A DNA stretch of 61,353 nt from Gemmatimonadota bacterium (GTDB taxonomy: Bacteria > Gemmatimonadota > Gemmatimonadetes > Longimicrobiales > Gaopeijiaceae): contig SKNW01000037.1 in NCBI GenBank assembly GCA_007120305.1, positions 1 through 61,353 on the forward strand. Reading direction: 5' to 3'. Of the stretch, positions 35,377 through 52,246 are shown piece by piece (within the stretch, counting starts at the first letter, position 1; each line of letters begins with the position of its first letter). The position numbers and the translations under genes were made by a program. The notes beneath the pieces were generated by a model, which saw only the letters and a list, made by a program, of their open reading frames with translations, did no database searches and had not been told where the DNA came from.

Positions 35377-35504
35377 AGGCCGACGGGACGGGGAAGGTCG
35401 GCGGGGCCGGGCACGTCGAAGACCGGTGGCCTTGCGGCTTCTCGGTTCCTCGGCGTCCTCGCGCGCCCCGTTGGGATGCGGAGGGAGGCGTGGGGGAATA
35501 AAAA

Positions 35505-35602
35505 TGCCCCAGGTTGACCGCAGCAACGATCACCACACTTACCGCTGCTACCGGCGAGGTCCTGACGGGATTCGTGGGCTTTCGTTCTGCGAACCTGGGG
35601 CA
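35505..35602 (-). ncRNA. ffs: bacterial small SRP RNA (4.5S-like)
   Basis: Minus strand: closing helix UGCCCCAGGUU/AACCUGGGGCA (11 bp), second helix CGCAG/CUGCG, core GUCAGG-ACC-UCGCC-GGU-AGCAGCGGUAAG matching the conserved CAGG/AGCAG SRP helix 8; followed by U-rich UUUUUAUU; located just upstream of dnaX as scr is in Bacillus subtilis. Confidence 0.88.
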
Positions 35603-42815: not shown

Positions 42816-43250
42816 TTACCCCGAACGGGAAGGCGCGTCGTCGGGGGCAGACGAAGGGGTCTCATCTTCGAAGAATTGCACCGGGGCGTCGCCCCAGAGG
42901 CGTTCGAGCTGGTAGAATTCCCGCGCCGCCGGGTGGAAGATGTGAACGACATAGTCCACGAAGTCCAGGAGGACCCAGCGCCCCCCCTGGAGACCTTCCA
43001 CGTGATTGGGCCGATGTCCCTCGGCGCGCATGCGCTCCAGGACATGATCGGCGATGGCCCGGACCTGGATGTCCGAGTTCCCGGTGGCCAGAAGGAACCA
43101 GTCGGTGGCCGTGGAGATCCCCCGCAGGTCCATGGCCAGAACGTCCCCAGCCTTGCGCTCAAGGGCAAGTCCGGCGGCACGGGCCAGCACCTCGGGGAGA
43201 TCCTCGATGCGCTGCTCGCTCGATGGCGTGGAGGCTTCGTGCTCGTTCAT
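42816..43250 (-). CDS. rsfS: ribosome silencing factor RsfS
   Basis: ALERKAGDVLAMDLRGISTATDWFLLATGNSDIQVRAIADHV; VEGLQGGRWVLLDFVDYVVHIFHPAAREFYQLERLWGD. Confidence 0.95.
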   Translation of the reverse strand: MNEHEASTPSSEQRIEDLPEVLARAAGLALERKAGDVLAMDLRGISTATDWFLLATGNSDIQVRAIADHVLERMRAEGHRPNHVEGLQGGRWVLLDFVDYVVHIFHPAAREFYQLERLWGDAPVQFFEDETPSSAPDDAPSRSG

Positions 43251-43329
43251 GGCAACCTGGGCATGGAAGACGGGTGGAAACAGGAGGCCGGGCGCCGGAC
43301 CGTACCCGACCCGGTGCCCCGCTTCTGCC

Positions 43330-43794
43330 TCACCCCTCCTCGCGCTCGACCCGGACCTCGATCTCCACCTCGACTTCACCGTGGAGACGGAGGGGGACCT
43401 GGAAGGAGCCGAGGGTCTTGATGGGCTCCTCGAGGTCCACGCTCCTGCGCTCCACCTCGAAATCCAGCCCCCGGGCGTTCAGTTGATCGGCGATGTCTGC
43501 GCTGGTGATGGACCCGAAAAGCTTCGCATCCTCCCCTTCGCCACCGGCGCGAGCCTTGAAGGTCAGCACCACCGCGTCGAACTGGGAGGCACGGCGACGC
43601 GCTTCGAGGTAGTCGCGCTTGGCGCGCTCCCCTGCGCGAAGGTTCTCTTCCTCGATGCGCTTGAGGTTCCCCGCCGACGCCACGTAGGCCAGCCCCTGGG
43701 GGAGCAGGTAGTTCCGCCCGTACCCCGGCTTCACGGTCACCACGTCCCCGGCGTCGCCAAGATTTGCCACGGCCTGCTTCAGAATCAGCTTCAT
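43330..43794 (-). CDS. rplI: 50S ribosomal protein bL9
   Basis: MKLILKQAVANLGDAGDVVTVKPGYGRNYLLPQGLAYVASAGNLKRIEEE. Confidence 0.96.
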   Translation of the reverse strand: MKLILKQAVANLGDAGDVVTVKPGYGRNYLLPQGLAYVASAGNLKRIEEENLRAGERAKRDYLEARRRASQFDAVVLTFKARAGGEGEDAKLFGSITSADIADQLNARGLDFEVERRSVDLEEPIKTLGSFQVPLRLHGEVEVEIEVRVEREEG

Positions 43795-43811
43795 GTCGTA
43801 CTCCTTCGAGT

Positions 43812-44765
43812 CTATTCGGGCGCGGAACCCGCGTTCCGCGCCGCCCGAGCCCGGAGATCCAGCCATGCATCTCCGATCCCCACGGCCATGGCACCCGCCA
43901 GCACGACGGGCGCCGCCACCACCATTCCCACCACCAGCAGAAGCCCTCGCAGCCATGAGAGCCCTCCCCAAAGGTAGAGGAGGACTCCCGCGCCCCGAAG
44001 GGCAAAGAGCGCCCCCATGAATACCACCAGATTGGCGCCGGCACGCCCCCACCCCTCGCCCCAGCCAAAAACCAGGGCCAGGGCCAGCCCCGCGATCAGG
44101 ATCCAGATCATGGGATCCGGAAAACGGAACTCCTCCAGCCGCCCCAGACCCACCGAACGTCTTCCTTCGGCGTCACCACTTACCTGCAGATGCAGCCACC
44201 ATGCTCCACCCAGCCCCAGAAGGGTGGCGATCCCCGCCTGCGCAGGGAAGAGGAGGCGCTGAACCTCTGCCGTTCGCTGCGCCGCCTCGCGGAACCCGGC
44301 CCCACCTCCCTGCCACCCCTCGGTGAGCTCCAGGGTGGCGGCCATGCCGGCGTCAATCCGGGCGCCCACCAGGGCCTCCAGCGTCGCCCAGCCTCCGCTT
44401 CCCGCGAGCACCATTCCTGCCCATCCGGCCCCGACGAGGAGCCCGATCAGCGCCCGGTCCATGAAGGGTCGTCCCGGGCCTGCCAACGTCGCTGCCACGA
44501 ACCCTCCGGCCACCATCAGCGACCACCCCCGGTCCACATCGGGCAGTCCGCCGCCTCCTCCCCCGAGAAGAACGAGGGCCAGCAGGACCGCGCCGACCAC
44601 GAGGCTCCTGGCAGGGACCCCCGGAAGAAGGAGACCGAAGAGCGCCAGCGGGAGCAGGACCGGAAGTACCGGGCTCCCCACCGATAGCACCAGGCAGCCT
44701 GCCAGCAGGGCCAGGCCGCGGAGGCCGGGACGCCCCCCGGGCGAGGAGGGCGCCCCTGCCTCCAT
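43812..44765 (-). CDS. DUF2232/YybS-like membrane protein
   Basis: Multi-TM, start placed at MEAGAPSSPGGRPG; located between S18 and L9 as is typical for DUF2232 proteins. Confidence 0.7.
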   Translation of the reverse strand: MEAGAPSSPGGRPGLRGLALLAGCLVLSVGSPVLPVLLPLALFGLLLPGVPARSLVVGAVLLALVLLGGGGGGLPDVDRGWSLMVAGGFVAATLAGPGRPFMDRALIGLLVGAGWAGMVLAGSGGWATLEALVGARIDAGMAATLELTEGWQGGGAGFREAAQRTAEVQRLLFPAQAGIATLLGLGGAWWLHLQVSGDAEGRRSVGLGRLEEFRFPDPMIWILIAGLALALVFGWGEGWGRAGANLVVFMGALFALRGAGVLLYLWGGLSWLRGLLLVVGMVVAAPVVLAGAMAVGIGDAWLDLRARAARNAGSAPE

Positions 44766-44775
44766 CGTCGCTCCG

Positions 44776-45423
44776 TTACCGCTCGTGGTTCTGAACGTAC
44801 GGCAGAAGCGCCAGGAAGCGGGCCCGCTTGACCGCAACGCCCAGGTCGCGCTGGAACCTGGCCGTGACCTTGGTGGTCCGCTTGGGGAGGATCTTCCCCT
44901 GCTCGGTGATGAAGCGGGACAGGGTCGAGACGTCCTTGAAGTTCAGGAGCTCGATGCGGGGTCCCTCGACCCGGCGACGCTTCCCGCGCCCCCCGGAGAA
45001 CTCCGGCGGCGAGCCGTCGTGCGACCCGTACTCGTCGTCGTCCTCCTCCTCTTCGTCATCGTCGTCGTCGTCGTCGTCGCGCTTGCCGGCGGATTCGTGG
45101 ACCTCCGCCAGGATCGACATCCCTGAGGTGGGCTCGCCCTCGCTGAGAACGAGCAGGTACCGGAGAAGCTCGTCGTCGAGCTTGAGGATCCGCTCGAACT
45201 CGGGAAGAGCCTCGGCCTCGGCGAGGAACTGGGCCACCACGTAGCGCCCCTGGGACTGGTCGGCGATGGCGTAGGCCAGCTGCCGGATCCCCCAGTCGTC
45301 GACGGCGGTGATTTCGGAGCCTTCTGCCCCGGTCAGGAGTCCGTGGAACCGCTCGAGGCGGGCCTGGACGCCATCGTCGTCGAGGGCAGGGTGGAAGATG
45401 TAGACGACTTCGTAAGTGCGCAT
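44776..45423 (-). CDS. rpsF-rpsR: fused ribosomal protein bS6-bS18 with Asp/Glu-rich linker
   Basis: Single 215-aa frame: [30 protein letters not shown]...[34 protein letters not shown] (S6) - [21 protein letters not shown] - [54 protein letters not shown] (S18); junction re-read by reverse complement, no stop. Confidence 0.93.
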
Positions 45424-45460
45424 GGAGCGTTGTCCCATGGTCCGTTGGAGAACACGGGCC

Positions 45461-45478
45461 CCGTCCGGAGGTGGACGG
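45461..45478 (-). promoter_or_regulatory. hairpin in the 5' leader of the bS6-bS18 gene (candidate S6:S18 leader element)
   Basis: CCGUCC-ACCUCC-GGACGG on the minus strand; lies between a candidate promoter and the start codon. Confidence 0.4.
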
Positions 45479-45495
45479 AGCGGGTCTAGCCGATG

Positions 45496-45524
45496 AAAAT
45501 AGCCCCGGCGGCCCGGAAGTTCAA
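45496..45524 (-). promoter_or_regulatory. candidate sigma70-like promoter for the bS6-bS18 gene
   Basis: Minus strand TTGAAC (45524-45519), 17-nt spacer, TATTTT (45501-45496); each hexamer 4/6 to consensus. Confidence 0.45.
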
Positions 45525-45544
45525 TGTCGGAGCCGCCGTCGACC

Positions 45545-46645
45545 TCAGACGTTGAAGCGGAACAGCATGATGTCCCCGTCCTTCACCAGGTACTCCTTCC
45601 CCTCCGACCGCATTTGCCCCTTCTCCCGGGCCGCCTTCAGCGAGCCCAGCGCCTCGAAGTCGGAGGTGTGAATCGTCTCGGCGCGGATGAAGCCGCGCTC
45701 GAAGTCGGAGTGGATGACCCCGGCGGCCTCAGGCGCCAGCGCCCCCTTCCGCACCGTCCAGGCGCGGGCCTCCTTCTCGCCCGCCGTGAAGAAGGTGATG
45801 AGTCCGAGCAGGTCGTACGTGGTCCGGATGAGGCGGTGGAGCCCCGGCTCGGCGAGCCCCAGATCGGCGAGAAACTCGCGGCGCTCCTCGGGATCCAGCT
45901 CGGCCAGCTCGGATTCGATGGCGGAACAGACGGCCACGATCTGCGCGCCCGGTTCCTCGGCCGTCACCACCTCCCGGAGCCTGGCCACGTGGGCATTCTC
46001 CCCGTCGGGCAGGTCGGACTCCGCCACGTTGGCGAGGTAGAGCACGGGCTTCGACGTGAGAAGGTGGAAGGACCGGAAAAGGGCCTGATCCTCGGCATCC
46101 ACCGTCACATCCCGGGCCGGACGCCCTTCCGCCAGCACGTTCAGTGTGCGATCAAGAAGAGCCAGCTCCCGGACCGCCTCCTTGTCTCCCCCCTTCGCCT
46201 TCTTGGCCACGCGGTCCCGCCGGCGCTCCACCGTGTCCAGGTCAGCCAGGGCAAGCTCGGTGTTCACCACGTCCCGATCCCGTGCCGGATCGACGTCGCC
46301 AAGCACGTGGGTGATGTCAGAATCCTCGAAGCAGCGAAGGACGTGGACGATGGCGTCGACCTCCCGGATGTTGCCCAGGAACTTGTTGCCAAGCCCCTCT
46401 CCCTCTGACGCCCCCTTGACCAGACCGGCAATGTCAACGAACTGCACCACGGTGGGGAGCCGGGCCCGTGCGCCTACAAGCTCGAAGATCCGGTCCAGGC
46501 GGGGGTCCGGCACCTCCACCGTCCCGACATTGGGATCGACGGTGCAGAACGGGTAGTTTTCGGAAGGAGCACCCTGGGCGGTCAGGGCATTGAAGAGGGA
46601 GGACTTCCCCACGTTGGGGAGCCCCACGATGCCGGCCTTGAGCAT
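45545..46645 (-). CDS. ychF: redox-regulated ATPase/GTPase YchF
   Basis: [52 protein letters not shown]-term [35 protein letters not shown]. Confidence 0.97.
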
Positions 46646-52175: not shown

Positions 52176-52246
52176 TTGGCCCGGGTGGATTCGAACCACC
52201 ACCGCCGGTTCCAAAGACCGGTGTCCTGCCATTAGACGACGGGCCA
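52176..52246 (-). tRNA. tRNA-Gln (anticodon TTG)
   Basis: Minus strand TGGCCCGTCGTCTAATGGCAGGACACCGGTCTTTGGAACCGGCGGTGGTGGTTCGAATCCACCCGGGCCA; 7-bp acceptor stem, anticodon loop CTTTGGA, T-loop TTCGAAT; CCA not encoded. Confidence 0.95.

Follow-up and report, generated by a model that had tools for sequence, protein, structure and literature searches.

In one family of Gemmatimonadota, the ribosomal proteins bS6 and bS18 are encoded by a single uninterrupted reading frame, in which two complete domains are joined by an acidic linker. The two are normally separate, essential ribosomal proteins that form the S6:S18 heterodimer on the 30S platform. The joint explanation which best fits the observations below is that of a genuine fusion of single origin, likely due to the loss of a stop codon, yielding one polypeptide that probably regulates its own synthesis; we give it a probability of about 0.8.

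The fused gene

The gene lies on the reverse strand of the window, i.e. the whole stretch of 61,353 nucleotides that was analysed. The open reading frame 45438..44776 contains no internal stop and leads from a complete bS6 through a linker into a complete bS18 (Table 1), so that the window protein has no free bS6 C-terminus. Both domains exceed the cut-offs of their profiles, be it in Pfam (PF01250, Ribosomal_S6, E=4.9e-24, 84.8 bits vs. 27; PF01084, Ribosomal_S18, E=4.8e-19, 68.6 bits vs. 21) or in NCBIfam (S6 equivalog TIGR00166, 77.4 bits vs. 42.9; S18 equivalog TIGR00165, 73.0 bits vs. 38.75), and these searches together place bS6 at residues 6–97 and bS18 at residues 161–216, the Pfam matches spanning residues 8–97 and 165–212, respectively. 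The single-frame fusion described in the earlier note is thereby confirmed. A PDB sequence search with the window protein retrieved bacterial bS6 and bS18 chains, and the bS6 fold was confirmed by the top Foldseek matches of the structural model, which are PDB bS6 chains (TMt about 0.9).

As for the translation start, Met 45423, which the earlier note had also chosen, is likely a better candidate than the in-frame ATG further upstream (MGQRS-) that opens the 45438 frame, because the latter belongs to a conserved leader RNA and the MR-YE- position is where almost every aligned relative has its start. In the surrounding region (42816..46645, reverse strand), the window carries ychF, the fused rpsF-rpsR, an ORF for a likely membrane protein, rplI and a probable rsfS-like ORF. 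Rfam searches also found a bacterial small SRP RNA (35504..35600) and a tRNA gene (52176..52246) in the window, both on the reverse strand.

Table 1. Position of the fused gene, its parts and its upstream elements in the window
Feature	Position	Strand	Basis and remarks
Fused bS6-bS18 CDS	44776..45423	-	Start Met 45423, stop included; frame reading, Pfam/NCBIfam and recurrence in the family
bS6 domain	45148..45417	-	PF01250
Linker between the domains	44956..45138	-	Domain limits; 61 residues, ending VEGPR; 53–197 in relatives
Acidic tract inside the linker	45031..45078	-	Translation; corresponds to the acidic tail encoded at the end of bS6 in unfused relatives
Conserved linker segment	44959..45012	-	Alignment; 18 residues (family consensus 17); not seen in unfused relatives
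bS18 core domain	44803..44946	-	PF01084
Structured 5' leader, three helices	45433..45484	-	Alignment and covariation; resembles rpsF_leader (PMC4647458)
TATA-like -10 element CTATTTT, upstream of the leader	45496..45502	-	Conserved columns (CTATATT in relatives); putative promoter function

Distribution of the fusion

In the source genome (103 contigs, 75.6% complete), the profile search returned exactly one S18 and one S6 match, both within the window ORF. The separate rpsR that the earlier note had named as evidence against a fusion was not found elsewhere in these contigs, and neither was a separate rpsF. The survey was extended to 121 genomes of the same family, 116 of which gave a match. 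One uninterrupted frame over both domains was present in 109 of these 116 (a manual count of the matches listed; in two of them the gene is cut by a contig end), representing 37 of the 40 genera and including five single-contig genomes (G005, G022, G025, G040 and G127). The fusion is thus close to fixed in the family, with no general stop or frameshift among the relatives. An S18 match was found in 69 of the 70 relatives that are at least 90% complete, with one per genome among the matches listed, except for G035, where it is split by contig ends. Likewise, one S6 was found per family genome, except for G017, split in the same way.

A sequencing or assembly error, i.e. a stop or frameshift missed in the GAC/GAT-rich linker, was a concern of the earlier note. 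The linker is indeed a low-complexity repeat in which one relative (G042) shows a frameshift, but the same fused frame recurs in 109 genomes of 37 genera, always in frame and with linkers of many different lengths. Because of this recurrence across the family, error or chance can be excluded, the probability left to an artefact being negligible.

Concerning the seven matching family genomes in which the frame is not continuous, only G036 and G038 have a genuine TAG between the two genes and are truly unfused. The sequence of G042 is frameshifted relative to that of its sibling G007, which is fused. In G141 and G146 the linker is interrupted by runs of N, and the sequence of G143 begins only within the linker, where its contig starts. 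In the seventh, G031 (locus L045), bS6 and bS18 lie about 0.4 kb apart and the bS18 is unlike that of the other family members; its contig is possibly a contaminant or foreign, or the genome is misplaced.

Outside the family, the two genes are separate in those members examined of the two other families of the same order and of the rest of the class. Among the matches listed for 395 Gemmatimonadota, of which about 301 do not belong to the family, no uninterrupted full-span fusion was found beyond the family, very long linkers being able to escape this search; the full-span matches listed for other Gemmatimonadota all carry an in-frame stop.

Origin of the fusion

In unfused relatives, no more than a few bases separate the rpsR start from the rpsF stop, and in some cases the two overlap. 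The two genes share the same frame in 11 of the unfused loci examined, usually with the stop followed by one codon and then by ATG, an arrangement also present in G036 and G038, which occupy a basal position in the family. With the rpsF stop lying next to the rpsR ATG and in frame with it in many relatives, the loss of one stop codon would suffice to fuse the genes, and the fusion probably arose in this way. A single change of state accounts for the fused genes on a tree built from S6, L9 and YchF without S18, and a single fusion event is proposed in the ancestor of most of the family. A small tree of L9 and YchF placed G036 and G038 inside the family, with weak support.

After the fusion, both the start codon and the Shine-Dalgarno sequence of rpsR would have been lost. 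In 32 of 55 fused genes, that of the window included, the 22 codons leading up to the S18 core contain no ATG, GTG or TTG, and no Shine-Dalgarno sequence was seen before the candidate start codons of the remaining genes of this set. These counts bear on whether bS18 is also made separately, by initiation inside the fused gene: some members do have Met or Val codons that could be used as starts, at RRRR[M/V]EGP, yet with such codons absent from most of the set and not preceded by a Shine-Dalgarno sequence where present, internal initiation is very improbable.

The Glu codons GAGGAGGAG of the acidic tail sit at the expected position of the rpsR Shine-Dalgarno sequence. The acidic tail of bS6 may have been shaped in part by this role of its codons. 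A general loss of Shine-Dalgarno use in the fused genomes was considered and rejected in view of rplI, which is preceded by a strong Shine-Dalgarno sequence in 73% of them vs. 20% in shuffled sequences; the sequence before the fused gene is weak, but general use is probably kept in the fused family. bS21 was found in almost all genomes, with no contrast between fused and unfused members.

Loss of the bS18 zinc motif

Alignment of bS18 revealed a difference that goes beyond the earlier note, as do the conserved linker segment and the leader RNA. Unfused relatives, with few exceptions, have a bS18 with a CX2C...CX2H motif (CPLCE...CARH), which binds zinc in the bS18 of M. tuberculosis and M. pneumoniae (PMC11791143). 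All four ligands are replaced in every fused bS18 aligned; in the window protein, the corresponding residues, counted from the conserved N-[YF]-K-D, are R and E, which precede the core by a short distance, and T and F. The loss of the zinc finger and the fusion fall on the same branch. The unfused family members G036 and G038 keep the motif. Secondary fission was considered for these two genomes and is less likely, given the retained zinc finger and their basal position.

A general loss of ribosomal zinc was rejected, since bL31 and bL36 of the fused genomes keep their cysteines. In G096 (locus L024), a member of another Gemmatimonadota family, the motif is partly lost (CPVTE, DARH) and the genes are unfused; ligand loss therefore does not require fusion. 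In the fused family, the tether could partly replace the stabilising role of the lost zinc site.

Composition of the linker

The linker measures 53–197 codons in the fused genes measured, always in frame, and consists of three parts: a start of the form GEPTSGxSI, a variable acidic tract and a conserved Arg-rich segment. Its start is shared with unfused bS6 (GEPTAPMSI), and the linker as a whole has a median of 22 Asp and Glu residues; that of the window carries the poly-Asp/Glu tract described in the earlier note. The linker of G022 (locus L064), a single-contig genome, has 197 residues, with Ala, Gly, Asp and Glu abundant, and exceeds by far those of the other family members.

In unfused relatives throughout the order and class, bS6 ends in an encoded Asp/Glu-rich tail (median 25.5 residues, 40% Asp and Glu), and the acidic tract is therefore older than the fusion. 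In a number of unfused loci (L004, L053, L041 and others), the terminal codons of rpsF, such as GAGGAGGAG, specify acidic residues and at the same time a likely rpsR Shine-Dalgarno sequence.

In E. coli, S6 receives a post-translational poly-glutamate tail from RimK, and the earlier note had suggested that the acidic tract might stand in for it. Compared with RimK-type polyglutamylated bS6, the tract of the window protein is encoded and internal, not C-terminal. RimK-type addition to the bS6 C-terminus would be impossible in a fused chain, and the source genome, itself 75.6% complete, gave no match to TIGR00768 above the cut-off. Against a substitution stand the encoded acidic tail that unfused relatives already possess and the full-score RimK-family proteins of some fused genomes, even if paralogues acting on other substrates also belong to the RimK family. 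With a tail that predates the fusion and Glu codons (GAGGAGGAG) placed at the rpsR Shine-Dalgarno site, the suggestion is weakened, and it is improbable that replacing RimK-added glutamates was what the tract does and why the fusion was selected.

The product of the fused gene

Residues of functional weight in bS6 and bS18 are retained. KRAR and KD are invariant in 46 fused bS18 sequences, and in the alignment the equivalents of E. coli S18 K60, R61 and R63, which form the rRNA-binding set, and of K24, the interface lysine (PMC4647458), as well as the RQLAY loop of bS6, are invariant or largely conserved. With the residues for contact and RNA binding preserved, the fused chain would most likely sit where bS6 and bS18 are normally found, as far as can be judged from sequence. 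AlphaFold2 predicted both domains as folded (pTM 0.71), with low confidence for residues 107–150; the arrangement of the domains comes from one of five models, the others having a mean pLDDT of about 60. In the proposed product, bS6 and bS18 would take up their usual neighbouring places on the 30S platform, with a long acidic linker, for the most part disordered, running between them.

The chain could also be a precursor, which a protease would cut in the linker or in its conserved Arg-rich segment to release bS6 with an acidic tail and a separate bS18. The segment is conserved despite its mostly low AlphaFold confidence, it could be a processing site, and a cut there would restore the ancestral tails almost exactly. 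On the other hand, the basic run can also be explained as an ordinary basic N-terminus of bS18 (MARxxRK-C in relatives), and we know of no dedicated bacterial protease for such a site. Eukaryotic fusions of ubiquitin with ribosomal proteins are cleaved; for the bS6-bS18 chain we nevertheless consider processing unlikely. The likeliest product is a working single-chain bS6-bS18 that escapes cleavage. The locked 1:1 stoichiometry put forward in the earlier note depends on this point: the covalent fusion itself is supported, and a fixed bS6:bS18 ratio follows from it trivially, but only if the chain stays uncut.

The platform is close to the 3' end of 16S rRNA, and there, in Bacteroidia, the anti-Shine-Dalgarno sequence is occluded by bS6 together with bS18 and bS21 (PMC9976891). 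A more far-reaching and tentative picture, which we regard as possible rather than expected, is that an uncleaved single chain is used in the ribosomes of the whole family, that its tether structurally replaces the zinc finger, and that its acidic linker, close to the mRNA exit and the anti-Shine-Dalgarno sequence, tunes initiation.

The leader RNA

A leader of ~52 bases precedes the gene in both fused and unfused members. Its three helices are paired in 99.6% of cells, vs. 28.6–51.6% when the structure is slid along the alignment, and 16 cells show changes on both sides of a pair, vs. 3.3 in shuffles. The GGG of a Shine-Dalgarno-like stretch is paired, while a conserved CC is unpaired. In E. 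coli, the S6:S18 complex binds rpsF_leader and represses rpsF, conserved cytosines mimicking the 16S site (PMC4647458). The leader found here, which gave no match in Rfam, is a probable bS6:bS18 autoregulatory element that resembles rpsF_leader in these features. Through it, the fused protein would probably control its own synthesis, as the S6:S18 complex does in E. coli. A three-helix leader of related form occurs in other families of the class.

Comparison with known systems

No published description of a bS6-bS18 fusion was found in a literature search, with subscription journals mostly outside its reach, in line with the earlier note, whose author was aware of none; automatic database annotation of such fused proteins probably exists. 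The fusion apparently represents an undescribed arrangement of known parts and an unusual change to a very conserved machine. The way in which bacterial ribosomal proteins are divided into chains rarely changes, and here the joined pair is the only copy across a family. It offers a natural test of how covalent coupling affects the assembly of the 30S subunit, of whether zinc at the bS18 site serves structure or storage, and of the effect of a permanent acidic arm near the anti-Shine-Dalgarno region. On the practical side, such genomes may be misread by marker-gene pipelines and by proteomics in which rpsF and rpsR are assumed to give two products.

With the separate rpsF and rpsR of other bacteria, the fused gene shares the domains, the interface and RNA-binding residues, the order rpsF-rpsR-...-rplI and a structured leader RNA; it differs from them in yielding one polypeptide, in lacking an rpsR Shine-Dalgarno sequence and mostly an rpsR start, and in its new conserved linker segment. 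With regard to the zinc-binding (C+) and zinc-free (C-) bS18 of mycobacteria (PMC11791143, PMC9976891), the fused bS18 is free of zinc ligands like the C- form, and its unfused relatives are C+. In mycobacteria, however, C- bS18 is an extra paralogue, whereas in the fused family the zinc-free bS18 is the only one, is joined to bS6 and coexists with bL31 and bL36 that are still C+.

In the human mitoribosome, the same pair, bS18m-bS6m, is also held by an extra link, there a [2Fe-2S] cluster ligated by cysteines of both proteins (PMC11791143), in contrast to the peptide linker of the fused family, which has no such cysteines. In the ubiquitin-ribosomal protein fusions of eukaryotes, a ribosomal protein is likewise made within a fusion. 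There, the partner is ubiquitin and the product is cleaved, whereas the fused family joins two ribosomal proteins to each other.
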